Assembly: GCF_900499075.1 (NCBI RefSeq)
Contig: NZ_UIHC01000030.1
Coordinates: forward strand, 1-40,397
Source: Roseinatronobacter ekhonensis
GTDB lineage: Bacteria; Pseudomonadota; Alphaproteobacteria; Rhodobacterales; Rhodobacteraceae
Direction of reading: 5' to 3'
Length of the DNA: 40,397 nucleotides
The translations under genes and the position numbers were made by a program. The stretch's first letter is position 1. Each line of letters starts with the position of its first letter. Of this stretch, positions 5,403 through 12,583 are shown piece after piece. Below the pieces are notes generated by a model. The model was not told the origin of the DNA. It did not search any database and worked only from the letters and a program-made list of their open reading frames with translations.

Positions 5403-5418
5403 TGGTGCCCGGGGGCGG
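5403..5418. repeat. attL: 16-bp copy of the tRNA-Phe 3' end
   Basis: Identical to 12509-12524, reading TGG (complement of CCA) then the acceptor and T-stem strand. The match stops on both sides (T versus A before it, C versus A after it). No tRNA body follows, so this is the displaced recombination copy and not a gene. Confidence 0.88.
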
Positions 5419-5561: not shown

Positions 5562-6755
5562 ATGCGGGCAACGAACAGGCTTTCGTCTCAATTTGTGAAA
5601 ACCGCCCCCGTGGGCAAACATTGCGACGGGGCCGGGCTTTGGCTGGTGCGGCGCGATGATGGTGGCGCGCAATGGGTGCTGCGCGTCACGGTGCACGGAC
5701 GGCGGCGGGAAATGGGCTTGGGCGGATTTCCGGCGCTCGGGCTGGCCGACGCCCGCAAGGCGGCCGAACGCTGGCGCAATCTGGCATCGGCTGGGCGTGA
5801 CCCGGTGAAGGAACGTGAAGCCGAAGAACGGGCCGCGCGGCGCGAAGATATATCGCTGGCCATTTTGACCGCTGACGCCTTTGAAGCGCGCAAGGCCGAA
5901 CTGAAAGGGGATGGCACGGCGGGCCGCTGGCTTTCCCCCCTGACCCTTCACGTCTTGCCCAAGCTTGGCCGGGTGCCGGTGACTGACCTCGATCAACGCG
6001 ACATTCGGGATACGCTTGCCCCTATCTGGCACACAAAGGCCGACACGGCACGCAAGGCGTTGAACCGGCTTTCAATCGTGCTGCGCCATGCGGCGGCGCT
6101 GGGCTTGGACGTGGACTTGCAAGCGACCGAAAAGGCAAAGGCGCTTCTGGGGAAGTCGCGGCATGTGCCCCAAAATATTCCAGCGATGACTTGGGCTGAT
6201 GTGCCGGGCTTCTATGCAAGCCTTGAAACACCGACCCTGACCCATCTGGCTTTGCGGCTTCTGATTCTGACCGGCCTGCGCTCTGCGCCGCTGCGCAATA
6301 TCCGGCTGGACCAGATAGAAGGCGACCTGTGGACTGTGCCCGCCGAAGCCATGAAGGGCCGCAAAGGCGCAACCGAAGCTTTCCGGGTGCCCCTATCACT
6401 GGAAGCCCAGCGCATCATCGACCTTGCACGCCCCCACGCCCGCAACGGCTTTCTTTTCCCATCGGTGCGTAAGGGTGTAATATCCGACGCCACAATGTCA
6501 CGGATGATGGAGCGGCGCGGGCTGGAAGCGCGCCCGCATGGCTTTCGCACCAGTCTGCGCACATGGCTGGCCGAAACAACCGACGCCCCCCATGAAGTAG
6601 CAGAGGCGATGCTGGCACATGTGGTTGATGGTGGTGTCGTGCGCGCTTATCGCCGGACGGATTATCTGGAACAGCGCGCCAAGCTGATGGATCGCTGGGC
6701 CGACCATGTGACCGGCGGCGCTGGGCAGGTGGTGAAGCTGGCGGGGGCGCGCTGA
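5562..6755 (+). CDS. P4-type tyrosine-recombinase integrase
   Basis: A 397-residue protein starting at ATG 5562. The N-terminal DUF4102-like arm-binding domain (about 1-85) has the GLWLVRRDDGGAQWVLRVTVHGRRREMGLGG pattern. The core-binding domain is about 95-190. The catalytic domain follows, with the first arginine in LTGLRSAP, the H-x-x-R box HGFR, a later histidine in EAMLAH, and the tyrosine in RAYRRTDYLEQRAKLMDRW. This family integrates islands and satellites at tRNA 3' ends, which fits the flanking tRNA-Phe repeat. The stop overlaps the next gene by one base (TGATG). Confidence 0.92.
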   Translation: MRATNRLSSQFVKTAPVGKHCDGAGLWLVRRDDGGAQWVLRVTVHGRRREMGLGGFPALGLADARKAAERWRNLASAGRDPVKEREAEERAARREDISLAILTADAFEARKAELKGDGTAGRWLSPLTLHVLPKLGRVPVTDLDQRDIRDTLAPIWHTKADTARKALNRLSIVLRHAAALGLDVDLQATEKAKALLGKSRHVPQNIPAMTWADVPGFYASLETPTLTHLALRLLILTGLRSAPLRNIRLDQIEGDLWTVPAEAMKGRKGATEAFRVPLSLEAQRIIDLARPHARNGFLFPSVRKGVISDATMSRMMERRGLEARPHGFRTSLRTWLAETTDAPHEVAEAMLAHVVDGGVVRAYRRTDYLEQRAKLMDRWADHVTGGAGQVVKLAGAR

Positions 6756-7499: not shown

Positions 7500-7547
7500 T
7501 GGGGCACCACTGCACTTATCGAACTCTAAAAGGACGAGGTGCAAGAC

Positions 7548-7730
7548 ATGCAAACCTATCTGACCCTGAACGAACTACGCGCCAAGCTTGGCAATCGCTC
7601 ACGCTCGGCAATCTATTTGGATTTAGAGGCGGGCCGACTGCCCAAGCCAGTGAAACTTGGCGGAAAACTGTATTGGCCGCAAGACGATGTTGACGCCCAT
7701 TTGCGCAATCTTCGCGAAGAGGCCGCTTAG
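7548..7730 (+). CDS. AlpA-like helix-turn-helix regulator/excisionase
   Basis: A 60-residue protein. ATG 7548 (MQTYLTLNELRAKLG) is preferred over the GTG at 7539 because GAGG ends 8 nt before it. The fold is a MerR/AlpA-type winged HTH: YLTLNELRAKLGNRSRSAIYLDLEAGRLPKPVKLGGKLYWPQDDVDAHLRNL, with the usual P-x-P-V-K-L-G...W turn. AlpA-type proteins in P4-like islands activate the integrase or act as excisionases. It is the first gene of a run that overlaps or abuts through 11540. Confidence 0.85.
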   Translation: MQTYLTLNELRAKLGNRSRSAIYLDLEAGRLPKPVKLGGKLYWPQDDVDAHLRNLREEAA

Positions 7731-7929: not shown

Positions 7930-8156
7930 AACCCACCGAAGGCCACGCCAAGCGTGCCGATCTGCCCCAGATGCACCATGCAGCCGAGATGGTCGTGGCG
8001 TGGGATGTTGCGGACGGGGTTGATTTGGGTGAAGCGCTCAAAGCCCTGCAATTAACCGCTGCGCTCAAGATGGCCAGTCATTGCGGCACCGCTCAGACGG
8101 CGGACGCGTTGCGCGAGCTGGCCCATCTCCTCGAACTTCACGGGGGTGCCGTATGA
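7926..8156 (+). CDS. Small hypothetical island protein, 76 aa
   Basis: It overlaps its neighbours by ATGA on both sides. It is an all-helical, soluble product (MKPTEGHAKRADLPQM... ALKALQLTAALKMASHCGTAQTADALRELAHLLELHGG). No family is recognised. Its place directly before the primase suggests a replication-module accessory protein. Confidence 0.6.
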   Translation: MKPTEGHAKRADLPQMHHAAEMVVAWDVADGVDLGEALKALQLTAALKMASHCGTAQTADALRELAHLLELHGGAV

Positions 8157-9037
8157 CCGACGCACGCACAATGACCGAATCGCTGGGCGGCGACTGGTTT
8201 CGAAGCTACGGAACCGCCCCGTGCCCTGTATGCCAACAGGCAGGCCGCAAAGAGCAAAACGCCCTAACTTTGGCAGATGGCGACAACGGTCGGTTGATGG
8301 CAAATTGCAAGAAATCCGACTGCGCCTTCCGGGATATAATGGTGATGGCGGGCTTGCGCGGCATTGCCTATCGCGCCCCGGACCCGGCGAAGATTGCCCA
8401 GCGCGAAGCCGAACGGCGGGCCGACGCCCAGCGCCGGGCGGGGCAGGCCGAACGCATCTGGCGGGAAGCCCAGCCCATCGCGGGCACGGCGGCGGCGGCC
8501 TATTTGAGGGCACGGGGCATCAACTGCGCCTTGCCCCATGTGCTGCGCTTTCACGGCGCTTGCTTTCACGGGCCGACCGCCCAGCGCTTTCCGGCGATGG
8601 TGGCGGCGGTGGAGGGCGGCAGCTTTGCGGTGCATCGCACCTATCTGCGCCCTGATGGTTCGGGCAAGGCCGGGCTGGAAGGCGGCGACAAGCTGATGCT
8701 CGGGGCAACCGCTGGCGGCGCTGTGCGGCTCACTGACGGGCCGGGGCGGCTGGTGGTGGCGGAAGGTATTGAAAGCGGCTTGTCGCTTGCCTGTGGCCTG
8801 CTGGATGGCCCCGCAACGCTTTGGGCCGGTCTTTCGACTTCTGGCATTCGTGGGCTGCACCTTCCGGCGCGACCGGGGCGGCTGACAATCGCTTGCGACG
8901 GCGACACGCCGGGCCGCGACGCTGCGCACGCATTGGCCGAACGGGCGCACGGCTTGGGCTGGCAAGTGGGCATCTGCGACCCCGGCGATGGGGCCGACTG
9001 GAACGATATTTTGACAGGAAAGGCGGTGGCGGCATGA
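8153..9037 (+). CDS. Zinc-ribbon/TOPRIM primase-like protein
   Basis: A 294-residue protein starting at ATG 8153. An N-terminal zinc-binding segment has CPVC (about residues 24-27) and CKKSDC (about 52-57), as in P4-alpha/T7-type primases. A basic linker follows. A TOPRIM domain occupies about 190-290, with the acidic motif VVAEGIESGLSLA, the WAGLSTSGI strand and the D-x-D motif TIACDGDTPGRDAA. It matches satellite and phage primases of the Toprim_3 type. The partner helicase is the next gene, overlapping by ATGA. Unlike P4 alpha, the primase and helicase are separate polypeptides here. Confidence 0.85.
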   Translation: MTDARTMTESLGGDWFRSYGTAPCPVCQQAGRKEQNALTLADGDNGRLMANCKKSDCAFRDIMVMAGLRGIAYRAPDPAKIAQREAERRADAQRRAGQAERIWREAQPIAGTAAAAYLRARGINCALPHVLRFHGACFHGPTAQRFPAMVAAVEGGSFAVHRTYLRPDGSGKAGLEGGDKLMLGATAGGAVRLTDGPGRLVVAEGIESGLSLACGLLDGPATLWAGLSTSGIRGLHLPARPGRLTIACDGDTPGRDAAHALAERAHGLGWQVGICDPGDGADWNDILTGKAVAA

Positions 9038-10587
9038 ACGCGCAACCCGGAATGCCCGGCCTCACCCCGAAGATGGCCATCCACGAAATGCCCGGCCTCA
9101 CCCCAAAAATGCCCGCGCCTGTTTCTTTCACCCCTGAGGGGCCGCAACCGCTAGTGCGCGAAATCGCACCCGGTGCAGCCTATCCGGTGGCATCGCTCGG
9201 GCCGCTGCGTGCCGCTGTGGAAGCGGTGCAGGGCGCGACCCAAGCCCCGGTGGCAATTCCGGCGCAATCGGCTTTGGCCGTGGCATCGCTGGCGGTGCAG
9301 GGCTTTGCCAATGTCGAAACCTTGGGCGGCACGCGCCCGCTGTCGCTTTACGCCCTGACAATTGCACGCTCGGGCGAACGGAAATCGGCCTGCGACGCGC
9401 CCTTGATGGCCGGTCTGCGTGCGCATGAAATCGAAGCGGGCCAAGGCCAGCGTGACGCGCTTGGAAGTTGGGAGAATACGCACGCTCTCTGGAAAAAGGA
9501 CCGCGACCGAATCGTGACCGGCAAGGGCGAAAAGCGCGCGACGGCGGCGGCGGACCTTGAAGCGCTTGGACCGGAACCGGCTGCGCCCCCATCCGCTGAC
9601 CGAACCGTAACGGAACCAACCTTTGAAGGGATGACCAAACTTTTCGCCACTGGCAATCCCAGCCTCGGGCTTTTCAGCGATGAAGGCGGGCAATTCCTGG
9701 GCGGGCACGCCATGAACTCGGAGAACCGGCAAAAGACGCTGGCGGCGTTCAATGACCTTTGGCAAGGCAACCCTATACGGCGGACGCGGGCAGGCGACGG
9801 GCACGCGACGCTCTACGGGCGGCGGCTGGCCGTTCACCTGATGGTGCAACCGACCGTGGCGCGCGGCTTCATGGCCGACCCCTTGGCGGCGGACACGGGC
9901 TTTCTGCCCCGTTTCCTGATGTGCGAACCGCCCAGCACCATCGGAACCCGGATGCAGGCGAACACCCGGCCTGATGGTGCGGCGCTGGCAGCCTTTGGCG
10001 GGCGGCTGCGCGCCATACTCGACGCGGCCATGCCAATGGACCCTGACACCCGCGAACTGCGCCCACGAACGCTGCAACTGGCACCTGACGCCCGCGCGCT
10101 GCTGGTGGCCTTTTCGGATGCTATCGAAGCGGCACAGGCCCCCGGTGGGGATCTGGCCCATATCACGGGCACGGCATCCAAGGCGGCGGAACAGGCGGCG
10201 CGCATCGCGGGCGTGCTGACCCTCTGGCGCGATCTAGCCGCCCCCGAGGTGCAGCCGGGCGATATGGTCGACGCAATCAACCTGGCGCAATTCTACCTGT
10301 CCGAAGCTTCACGGCTGGCAAGCGCTGCGCTTGTCTCTGCTGAAATCGACCAGGCCGAAGCGTTGCGGCGCTGGCTGCTACAAGGCTGGCAGGAATCGGA
10401 CGTGCTGGTGCGCGATGTGGTGCGGCTCGGGCCGAACGCGCTGCGCGAAAGCCCCAAGGCGCGGGCGGCGCTGGGCATCCTCGAAAAACACGGCTGGATT
10501 GTGCCGCTCGACCCCGGAACCGTGGTGCGCGGGGCTGCACGCAAGGAAGCGTGGCGCATCGTGAAAGGGGCGGGCGATGTGGTTTGA
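9034..10587 (+). CDS. DUF3987 helicase/primase-like replication protein
   Basis: A 517-residue protein. Residues about 1-35 contain a short tandem repeat (MPGLTPKM twice, 12 residues apart). The DUF3987 domain follows, with a Walker-A-like loop ARSGERKSACD (about 113-123), a Walker-B-like GLFSDEGG (about 212-219), and the conserved QKTLAAFNDLWQGNPIRRTR and GFLPRFLMCEPPS segments. The C-terminal 100 residues look like a winged-helix region. DUF3987 proteins accompany TOPRIM primases in satellites and plasmids and are thought to be replicative ATPases. It overlaps the next gene by 11 nt. Confidence 0.85.
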   Translation: MNAQPGMPGLTPKMAIHEMPGLTPKMPAPVSFTPEGPQPLVREIAPGAAYPVASLGPLRAAVEAVQGATQAPVAIPAQSALAVASLAVQGFANVETLGGTRPLSLYALTIARSGERKSACDAPLMAGLRAHEIEAGQGQRDALGSWENTHALWKKDRDRIVTGKGEKRATAAADLEALGPEPAAPPSADRTVTEPTFEGMTKLFATGNPSLGLFSDEGGQFLGGHAMNSENRQKTLAAFNDLWQGNPIRRTRAGDGHATLYGRRLAVHLMVQPTVARGFMADPLAADTGFLPRFLMCEPPSTIGTRMQANTRPDGAALAAFGGRLRAILDAAMPMDPDTRELRPRTLQLAPDARALLVAFSDAIEAAQAPGGDLAHITGTASKAAEQAARIAGVLTLWRDLAAPEVQPGDMVDAINLAQFYLSEASRLASAALVSAEIDQAEALRRWLLQGWQESDVLVRDVVRLGPNALRESPKARAALGILEKHGWIVPLDPGTVVRGAARKEAWRIVKGAGDVV

Positions 10588-10921
10588 CGCCTTCGCCAAG
10601 CTGGTGGAAATCGTGGCACCCCCTTGCGACATCCGCGACAACTGCGACACGGGGCGGCAATTCAGTAATTGCTGTGACGTGTCAGTAATTACTGTGTCGC
10701 GGATGTCGCAAGTGTCGCAACGCCCCCCCGCGCGAAAGTCAGAACCCAAGCCCAGCGCCAAAGCCTTCCGGCATGGCGTATCTTTCGCGGGGAAGCCGCT
10801 CACATGGACGGGCCACATTGTTTCGCTGGATGATTGGCGGCGACTGACCGAATGGGAACAGCACGGGCCAAACGGACGGCACTGGAACAGTATAACGCAA
10901 ACATGGGAAGAACCCGAATGA
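10577..10921 (+). CDS. Hypothetical island protein, up to 114 aa
   Basis: The earliest start is ATG 10577 inside the previous gene. A later ATG at 10703 would give a protein starting MSQVSQRPPARKS, but has no ribosome site. The C-terminal half (AFRHGVSFAGKPLTWTGHIVSLDDWRRLTEWEQHGPNGRHWN) looks like a genuine conserved small domain. The N-terminal half (CDIRDNCDT ... SRMSQVSQ) is encoded by the symmetric repeat array and may owe its sequence to DNA function. The stop overlaps the next start (ATGA). Function unknown. Confidence 0.6.
   Translation: MWFDAFAKLVEIVAPPCDIRDNCDTGRQFSNCCDVSVITVSRMSQVSQRPPARKSEPKPSAKAFRHGVSFAGKPLTWTGHIVSLDDWRRLTEWEQHGPNGRHWNSITQTWEEPE
10623..10721. other. Candidate replication origin: symmetric iteron array
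   Basis: Three direct repeats (T/C)GCGACA start at 10625, 10634 and 10643, exactly 9 bp apart. Three inverted copies TGTCGC(A/G) start at 10695, 10704 and 10713, again exactly 9 bp apart. The outer arms 10623-10640 and 10695-10712 are perfect 18-bp inverted repeats. Between them lie CAGTAATTGCTG (10663-10674) and the perfect palindrome CAGTAATTACTG (10683-10694), 20 bp apart and AT-richer than their surroundings. Placement right behind the primase and DUF3987 genes is typical of initiator-bound origins. Operator function is the main alternative. Confidence 0.6.
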
Positions 10922-11124
10922 CTATTTTACGCAAGCGAATTGACCGGCTCGAACGCAACCGCCCGGCGCTTGACGCTGATGTGCCGTTCGAGCTGATAGG
11001 GCTTGCCCCTGATGTGGCCGCGCGCTTCATGGCGGCAAAGGCACAAGGCACCTTTCCGCGCTCACTGTGCGATGCTGATCTGCACGCGCTGGTGGCTTTG
11101 GGTGATGAACTGGGGGTGATATGA
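10918..11124 (+). CDS. Small hypothetical island protein, 68 aa
   Basis: Start ATG 10918 overlaps the upstream stop, and the end overlaps the next ATG at 11121. The N-terminus MTILRKRIDRLERN resembles that of the 74-residue protein at 12183 (MNPLQKRLDRLEAH). Both may be related coiled-coil-starting phage-type proteins. The remainder (ELIGLAPDVAARFMAAKAQGTFPRSLCDADLHALVALGDELGV) is helical. Not recognised. Confidence 0.6.
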   Translation: MTILRKRIDRLERNRPALDADVPFELIGLAPDVAARFMAAKAQGTFPRSLCDADLHALVALGDELGVI

Positions 11125-11540
11125 CCCGTAAAAGCGGACGCAATACGGATGGCACCTTTGGCCCCGGCAATTCCGGCAAGCCCAAGGGCACGCGCCACAA
11201 GGCGACACAGGCGGCGCTGGCCCTGCTGGACGGCGAAGCCGAGGCGCTGACCCGGCAAGCCGTGACAATGGCGCTGGGCGGCGATGCAACGGCGCTGCGC
11301 TTGTGCCTTGAACGCATCGCCCCGCCCAGAAAGGATGTGGCCGTGACCTTCGACCTGCCCCCGATGGAAACCGCCCGCGACGCTGCAAAGGCCGCTGGTG
11401 CGGTGCTGGGCGCAGTGGCCGATGGCGACCTGACACCAACCGAAGGCGCGCATATCATGGCGCTGGTGGAAACCTACCGGCGGACGCTGGAAACATCGGA
11501 CTTGGAAGCCCGGTTGCGGTACATGGAGGAGACGTTATAG
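11121..11540 (+). CDS. DUF5681-domain protein
   Basis: A 139-residue protein. The N-terminus has the DUF5681 signature: a basic, glycine-rich start (RKSGRNTDGTFGPGNSGKPKGTRHKAT) followed by helices (ALALLDGEAEALTRQAVTMALGGDATALRLCLERIAPPRKD). These proteins are often encoded next to phage terminases and may bind DNA. No large terminase follows here. It ends the overlapping island operon; an AT-richer stretch begins just after it. Confidence 0.75.
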   Translation: MTRKSGRNTDGTFGPGNSGKPKGTRHKATQAALALLDGEAEALTRQAVTMALGGDATALRLCLERIAPPRKDVAVTFDLPPMETARDAAKAAGAVLGAVADGDLTPTEGAHIMALVETYRRTLETSDLEARLRYMEETL

Positions 11541-12508: not shown

Positions 12509-12524
12509 TGGTGCCCGGGGGCGG
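12509..12524. repeat. attR: 16-bp repeat inside the tRNA-Phe 3' end
   Basis: TGGTGCCCGGGGGCGG, the complement of CCA, discriminator, acceptor strand and most of the 3' T-stem. It is identical to 5403-5418. About 60 bp of AT-rich sequence (12441-12508) precedes it inside the island and could hold integrase arm sites. Confidence 0.88.
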
Positions 12525-12583
12525 AATCGAACCACCGACACGAGGATTTTCAATCCACTGCTCTACCCCTGAGCTACCCGGGC
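12509..12583 (-). tRNA. tRNA-Phe (GAA), intact, island attachment site
   Basis: 75 nt on the minus strand. The 5' acceptor strand GCCCGGG pairs with CCCGGGC, followed by discriminator A and an encoded CCA. The D-arm stem is GCTC/GAGC. The anticodon stem GTGGA/TCCTC contains one G-T wobble and carries loop TTGAAAA, so the anticodon is GAA. The T-arm is GGTGG-TTCGATT-CCGCC. The last 16 nt are duplicated at 5403-5418, so the island has rebuilt the tRNA 3' end exactly. It lies just downstream of yacG. Confidence 0.96.

Follow-up and report, generated by a model that had tools for sequence, protein, structure and literature searches.

A phased iteron array behind a DUF3987 helicase gene of Roseinatronobacter ekhonensis: a candidate origin and its likely reader

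What is the role of short repeats that stand in strict 9-bp register directly behind a DUF3987 gene, and which protein reads them? The question is raised by an integrated element of the alphaproteobacterium Roseinatronobacter ekhonensis, located in a stretch of 40,397 nucleotides (contig NZ_UIHC01000030.1, positions 1 to 40,397) that we call the window. A reading of the letters alone, hereafter the sequence-only reading, had put the repeats forward as a candidate replication origin. The array is confirmed as real and beyond chance, arrays of the same block size and phase occupy a preferred place behind related DUF3987 genes, and their repeated word covaries with two residues, 460 and 464, of the adjoining DUF3987 protein. 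Sequence comparison makes it very probable that the array is an origin or its recognition part, and that the DUF3987 protein is the initiator and replicative helicase that would read the iterons through these residues. Of the original proposal, the phased iterons at a fixed place stand and covariation points to DUF3987 as their likely reader; origin function is what we infer from them.

The array and its place behind DUF3987 genes

The window array spans positions 10625-10719, begins 37 bp past the stop codon of the DUF3987 gene and comprises six 7-bp sites, three direct and three inverted. The features concerned are the following.

9034..10587, plus strand: DUF3987 (YfjI-type) helicase, proposed initiator (Pfam DUF3987, expectation value E 3.5e-90; PHROG 2373, DNA helicase)
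10577..10921, plus strand: open frame of 114 aa traversing the array, without a family match above cut-off
10625..10649, plus strand: iteron block A, TGCGACA, CGCGACA, TGCGACA in 9-bp phase
10650..10694: 45-bp spacer with CAGTAATTGCTG and CAGTAATTACTG, exceeding the commoner 22-23 or 11-12 bp
10695..10719, minus strand: iteron block B, inverted, minus-strand TGCGACA, TGCGACA, CGCGACA in 9-bp phase

The direct sites are TGCGACA (10625-10631), CGCGACA (10634-10640) and TGCGACA (10643-10649); the inverted ones read TGTCGCG (10695-10701), TGTCGCA (10704-10710) and TGTCGCA (10713-10719). Two of the six sites are therefore of the CGCGACA type. The outer arms form a perfect 18-bp inverted repeat (10623-10640 and 10695-10712), longer arms of 27 nt match at 81%, and the central words CAGTAATTGCTG (10663-10674) and CAGTAATTACTG (10683-10694) are 20 bp apart. 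The sequence-only reading had described the exactly phased triplets, the two central words, the 18-bp arms and the position directly after the DUF3987 gene, and each of these was found as described. Scanned de novo, the 600 bp located 3' of the DUF3987 stop contain five phase links, whereas 40 dinucleotide shuffles of the same DNA averaged 1.1 and never exceeded 2.

In the 3.9-Mb genome of the organism, the three-site pattern with at most one mismatch occurs at five places, four of them beside two DUF3987 copies and one elsewhere. The second DUF3987 gene, which is 80% identical, has its own array, with three direct sites, three inverted sites and a second inverted triplet. Only two stretches of the 345-bp frame that covers the window array match the paralogue locus at the DNA level, and the overlapping frames translate the array as A-T-x in the paralogue and as C-D-x in the window. 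Since the array is read in different frames, it is the DNA that was kept and not the peptide. This bears on the earlier suggestion that conservation of the repeats be set against that of the encoded residues: in the paralogue the DNA word is preserved and the overlapping peptide is not. A contig from a viral collection (L157, positions 135-330) carries a DUF3987 C-terminal piece 98% identical to that of the window and nearly the same array; both of its central words are CAGTAATTACTG, and the DNA right behind its array differs from the window's.

The sequence-only reading had called for a search of DUF3987-carrying islands for phased repeats at the same place. We assembled non-redundant DUF3987 loci from the protein side, with close relatives defined by a profile E<1e-60 and a chain defined as at least three phased NGCNANN sites within 600 bp. 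Such a chain lies downstream of DUF3987 in 70 of the 107 close loci, as against 3/97 upstream, 1/105 inside the gene and 0.3% in shuffled downstream DNA. In two of the locus comparisons, including the shuffle scan, only one of any loci sharing more than 80% of their 5-mers was kept. The median distance from gene stop to array is 55 bp (88 loci).

The converse scan started from the motif, three phased TGCGACA sites regardless of genes, and returned at least 116 genome stretches and 64 viral stretches. Among the matches listed, 107 open reading frames (ORFs) of at least 200 aa point at a TGCGACA triplet no more than 800 bp away (each from a different locus, drawn from at least 180 loci), and 32 of them match DUF3987 (E<1e-5); the next-best families account for three each. 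These 107 include five pairs of near copies, four of them of DUF3987 ORFs. In the viral contigs, DUF3987 is found within 1 kb of 10 of the 64 triplet stretches, with the array on its 3' side in all 10, and a scrambled-word control gave DUF3987 beside 0/24. Most TGCGACA stretches, among the matches listed, have no DUF3987 match by tblastn, and the triplet is thus partly unspecific as a probe as well. Ten ORFs beside stretches without such a match proved to be ordinary genes in some cases and weak DUF3987 matches in three. We rejected TGCTACA triplets as a probe: among the matches listed (at least 118 loci), a single one adjoins DUF3987, its contig having been in the set before, and 65 are within ORFs 400 aa or longer, showing that this triplet alone is unspecific. 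Viral contigs frequently contain phased TGCTACA triplets with no DUF3987 nearby (L373-L490). Two archaeal loci, L016 and L030 (Nitrososphaeraceae, Nitrososphaerales), have the same phased word in both orientations and no DUF3987 match by tblastn.

Among 296 family genomes, four contain a converging TGCGACA-type pattern, and each of the four loci follows a DUF3987 match by no more than about 340 bp; the window falls just outside the definition of this pattern because of its long spacer. DUF3987 itself is matched in 67 of the 296 family genomes and in 60 of 397 genomes of the phylum sample, and phage records yielded just one remote relative.

Iteron words and helicase residues

The AlphaFold2 model of the window DUF3987 protein (mean predicted local distance difference test score 92.9, predicted template modeling score 0.88) has a C-terminal domain with three helices (residues 436-450, 459-465 and 473-485) and a wing (strands within 489-509). 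Residues 460 and 464 are one turn apart on helix 459-465.

10327..10584, plus strand: coding region of the predicted C-terminal winged-helix domain (residues 432-517; AlphaFold2)
10411..10413, plus strand: Arg460 codon, covarying with iteron base 6
10423..10425, plus strand: Arg464 codon, covarying with iteron base 4

Minichromosome maintenance (MCM) helicases lead a fold search of the PDB (first E 1.9e-4, probability 1.0). The isolated C-terminal domain model matched winged-helix proteins weakly (best E 0.027), and a sequence search of solved structures with the window protein gave nothing above noise.

The word differs among the 85 labeled loci: TGCGACA in 46, TGCTACA in nine, TGCTATT and TGCTAAA in five each, and rarer words in the rest. 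We scanned 432 variable alignment columns in 81 of these loci (profile E<1e-60) for covariation with the word. Base 4 singled out residue 464 (z 21.2, next column 6.2), base 6 residue 460 (z 19.0, next column 5.7) and base 7 residue 460 also (z 9.0, next column 5.9); these z-scores derive from 60 permutations that ignore kinship, and the arrays were recognized by the TGCNANN pattern, so that bases 1, 2, 3 and 5 were preset. With a looser chain rule, 115 of 158 proteins have arrays, 96 of them of one base-4/base-6 type; the other 19 were set aside for showing more than one type, many being the same array read on the other strand. Among the 96 one-type loci, Gln464 occurs with T4 in 34/34 cases, Arg464 with G4 in 43/46 and Arg460 with C6 in 60/62. 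Ser, Gly, Ala or Pro at 460 goes with A or T at base 6 in 22/23. The combination Arg460 and Arg464 predicts G4/C6 (40/40), and that of Arg460 and Gln464 predicts T4/C6 (15/15). Natural homologues with Gln464 include L341 and L304, whose array word is TGCTACA, and L201, which has Ser460 as well and the word TGCTAAT. Arg-G and Gln-A are classical contacts.

The kinship that the z-scores ignore was addressed by a tree test, using a quickly built tree of the helicase core only under a simple model. Base 4 changes at least 24 times on this tree. The 15 independent supported pairs for base 4 and residue 464 include 13.1 with concordant and none with opposite change (median p 2.4e-4), and the 13 pairs for base 6 and residue 460 include 10.0 and 0.2, respectively (median p 0.002). 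The crossed base-residue pairings yielded median p values of 0.22 and 0.73.

The rule was fixed before further loci were fetched. From 34 such loci came 21 complete DUF3987 proteins, one of them redundant, leaving 20 new ones, nine of which were labeled; in the applicable cases they agreed with the rule in 7/7 and 8/8. By the looser rule, Gln464 went with T4 in 6/6, Arg464 with G4 in 2/2 and Arg460 with C6 in 6/7, the seventh being L534. Ten of the eleven unlabeled loci were read by eye, L526 being left out. L531, L516 and L532 have NGCTACA or TCCTACA arrays, matching the rule's expectation; L528 agrees with the rule, and L525 agrees at base 4 and partly at base 6. L533 is degenerate, and L534 reads TGCGGCA.

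Array geometry, proposed mechanism and alternatives

Runs of three sites predominate (100 of 207, with 57 of two, 46 single sites, three of four and one of five), and 242 of 296 neighboring-site distances are 9 bp, 28 being 10 bp and 24 being 18 bp. Of the 85 labeled loci, 46 have a forward block and then an inverted one. There, the step between the two blocks, taken from the last forward site to the first inverted one, measures 29-30 bp in 24 cases, 18-19 bp in seven, 37-39 bp in five and 50-52 bp in two, the window having 52; it is 9, 14, 27, 28, 31 or 35 bp in the other eight. Among 49 converging arrays defined by the chain rule, the spacer measures 22-23 bp in 25, 11-12 bp in 15 and 31-33 bp in four, while lengths of 21, 24, 45 (the window), 56 and 68 bp occur once each. 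Periodicity is strongest near 11 bp (resultant 0.90), which is suggestive of a demand on helical phase, in a statistic dominated by two clusters. In at least four loci (L123, which is Chromatium okenii, L154, L518 and L523), differing words are stacked behind one helicase gene; L123, which has Arg464, carries arrays of several words. These stacked arrays look like collected origins of other specificity.

The center of the array, to which the sequence-only reading had given weight, fared less well beyond the window. AT content is indeed higher there in the window (0.51 versus 0.34 across the two 60-bp flanks), but the 49 converging arrays average 0.34 in the spacer and 0.39 in the flanks, with the spacer higher in 16/49. 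Likewise, among the loci compared, CAGTAATTACTG is confined to the window, L444 and L157, the last being nearly identical to the window, and CAGTAATTGCTG to the window and L448. We therefore discarded the AT-rich center and the central palindromes as a general functional core. Initiator loading may be bidirectional or paired, as the sequence-only reading suggested.

In the mechanism that we propose, DUF3987 would belong to the MCM-like AAA+ ATPases and bind every TGCNANN word of the 9-bp-phased series through its C-terminal winged helix, in which residue 464 (Arg or Gln) would recognize base 4 and Arg460 would recognize base 6. Three direct and three inverted sites, some helical turns apart, would seat two helicase assemblies head to head. 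The helicase may gather on the iterons behind its own gene, open the DNA and start replication of the excised element, with primers presumably made by the Toprim primase encoded upstream. From these patterns we infer direct binding, helicase activity, the loading geometry and a replication start at the array. In a circular 19-kb Pseudomonas putida plasmid record, DUF3987 is the sole gene of replication-initiator type found (15 annotated genes, 10 scanned). Its protein has R460 and R464 and a GGCGACA triplet lies behind the gene, as the code expects; a DEAD/DEAH helicase is also annotated there beside restriction-type genes. L121, a 6.5-kb contig with 127-bp identical ends that is probably circular, has a TGCGACA triplet inside an extended DUF3987 frame; visual inspection suggests that a primase and an AlpA-like gene accompany DUF3987, and revealed no recognizable integrase among its listed ORFs. 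Both records are consistent with self-sufficient replicons and do not constitute proof.

Several observations weigh against this interpretation. Chains are missing by the same rule from 37 of the 107 close loci and are present in only 9 of 55 distant ones, which may have words of another form or another way of working; phased repeats of other form (GACAAAA, CTGACAG) do occur behind some DUF3987 genes in the de novo scan. The converging layout is limited to the 46 loci counted above, and phage-type loci often have their blocks in one direction, 130-500 bp off. The code has exceptions: Arg464 with T4 (TGCTATT) in L195, L202 and L205, Arg460 without C6 in L313 (A6) and in L534 (apparently misregistered), and C6 in six loci without Arg460. 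No clear rule emerges for residues other than Arg and Gln at 464, Asn occurring with G five times, T twice and A once. Of the 20 later loci, the strict rule could not label 11; L530 has no array by eye, and arrays of two kinds are found in L523 (a TGCGATT set and a TGCGACA set) and L518 (a TGCTATT set, then a TGCGATT set). The fold likeness to MCM is remote (template modeling score about 0.3). Residues 460 and 464 belong to the second of the three helices of the winged-helix domain, an unusual placement, as the third is the usual DNA reader. Finally, Psychrobacter plasmids with DUF3987 also carry RepM, which rules them out as DUF3987-only replicons.

The array might instead be an operator, bound by DUF3987 or another protein of the element to control the operon or the following gene, with no role in replication. 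Winged helices of this type occur in many regulators, and an open frame does traverse the array. We nevertheless find this unlikely, as the array lies behind the gene and rarely in front of it and the DNA that follows differs among loci compared by eye. Moreover, a helicase-type protein with a DNA-reading domain, next to an array at the place of the known origin of Staphylococcus aureus pathogenicity islands (SaPIs), points to replication (PMC7581432).

Much less probable still is a reader other than DUF3987, such as AlpA or the primase, with the covariation being indirect: genes for both kinds of protein lie near a number of loci, but the scan picked out of 432 columns two residues that are four apart on one helix, and at several array loci only DUF3987 was matched (tblastn with the window proteins on short flanks, a search that divergent relatives may escape). 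We give equally little credence to a coding explanation, in which the repeats encode A-T-x or V-A-x units of a short protein and persist for the sake of the peptide. This would fit the 64 of 88 first arrays that share one frame when counted from the earliest start that covers them, and the listed viral TGCTACA triplets that fall inside long ORFs. The other 24, however, are in different frames, including the window, whose paralogue in the same genome is in the common one; the 10-bp distances break the frame, and the word follows residues of another protein. The peptide was rejected because of the differing frames and the 10-bp steps.

With DUF3987 kept as the preferred reader, a broader proposition can be formulated, which we offer tentatively and consider somewhat doubtful as a whole. 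DUF3987 proteins might be initiator helicases of bacteria that resemble MCM and load themselves, with residues 460 and 464 as a two-residue code for the word that they read; for these helicases, convergent triplets in helical-turn steps would seat head-to-head rings as in MCM double hexamers. Paired changes of residues and arrays would create origin-specificity groups, and elements with stacked arrays might be copied by a neighbor's helicase. If the mechanism proposed above is right, it would give a function to many DUF3987/YfjI proteins, which are widespread and named as of unknown function. It would also provide a mark for locating their origins, and a rule predicting the origin read by a given protein and hence the elements that might cross-replicate or exclude each other.

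The host island and known systems

The array belongs to an integrated element of 7.1 kb bounded by two copies of TGGTGCCCGGGGGCGG, one of them inside the 3' end of tRNA-Phe. These two att copies are the only matches to this repeat in the window.

5403..5418: att repeat TGGTGCCCGGGGGCGG, integrase-proximal island end, exact 16-bp match to 12509-12524
5562..6755, plus strand: tyrosine integrase (Pfam Arm-DNA-bind_3, Phage_int_M, Phage_integrase)
7539..7730, plus strand: AlpA/HTH_17-like regulator or excisionase (Pfam HTH_17 E 6.6e-5 and AlpA E 7.8e-4, both below curated cut-off; PHROG 66, excisionase and transcriptional regulator)
8153..9037, plus strand: DUF7146-Toprim_3 primase (PHROG 510, DNA primase)
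11121..11540, plus strand: DUF5681 protein
12509..12524: att repeat in the 3' end of tRNA-Phe (12509-12583, minus strand)

The remaining island frames are small and without family match. A 31-nt direct repeat at 9048-9114 falls in the N-terminal DUF3987 codons and encodes MPGLTPKM twice.

Classical iteron plasmids use a Rep initiator and iterons of about 20 bp; here the spacing is 9 bp, and no plasmid Rep family was found among the scanned island proteins. Closer parallels are offered by mobile islands. The SaPI Rep protein is reported to act as an initiator helicase at its own origin, reading iterons by its C-terminal domain, and Cch2 of the staphylococcal cassette chromosome mec (SCCmec) to bind and unwind such repeats in vitro, its putative origin lying directly behind the helicase gene (PMC7581432). 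The window shares with these systems short iterons directly 3' of the gene for an initiator helicase, a proposed one in the window, two hexamers having been proposed there (PMC7581432); the AT-rich region between iteron sets is seen in the window and is not the rule among its relatives. The proteins differ, as the Cch helicase is a DUF927 protein and Cch2 a Primase_Cterm/D5_N protein with the iteron AAGTG, and the available account holds no residue-base code (PMC7581432).

EcCICFT073, a Gram-negative phage-inducible chromosomal island (PICI), has two iteron sets beside rep, and its cloned rep-ori segment replicates (PMC6092414). It resembles the window island in its int, alpA and replication genes with two adjoining iteron sets, but its protein is another (Pri-Rep) and an AT-rich region, a feature that is not the rule here, lies between its sets (PMC6092414); "DUF3987" is absent from the main text of that paper. 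The sequence-only reading knew of no described origin with this layout. Given two iteron sets beside rep in PICIs (PMC6092414) and an origin behind the helicase gene in SaPIs and SCCmec (PMC7581432), the general plan is not new.

Phage-inducible chromosomal minimalist islands (PICMIs) are likewise small, with an integrase, AlpA (matched below the curated cut-off here) and a DUF3987 protein. Their primase gene prim is detected in the authors' model through DUF3987 and DUF5906, and the copy number falls when it is deleted (PMC10803314). They integrate downstream of fis (PMC10803314), whereas the window island uses tRNA-Phe. DUF3987 proteins fused to PrimPol have been predicted to be mobile-element helicases whose C-terminal winged helix was suggested to recognize origins, a prediction at the family level only (PMC5862659). 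The word "iteron" is absent from the main text of both papers (PMC10803314, PMC5862659). The archaeal plasmid pRN1 also has its origin behind the replication-protein gene, but this origin needs a 100-nt stem-loop and not phased iterons (PMC4234260). No description of DUF3987 iterons or of a recognition code was found in the open-access literature, searched in part. The DUF3987 iterons and the residue-base code appear to be new, on a general plan, that of iterons or an origin behind a helicase gene, which is known.
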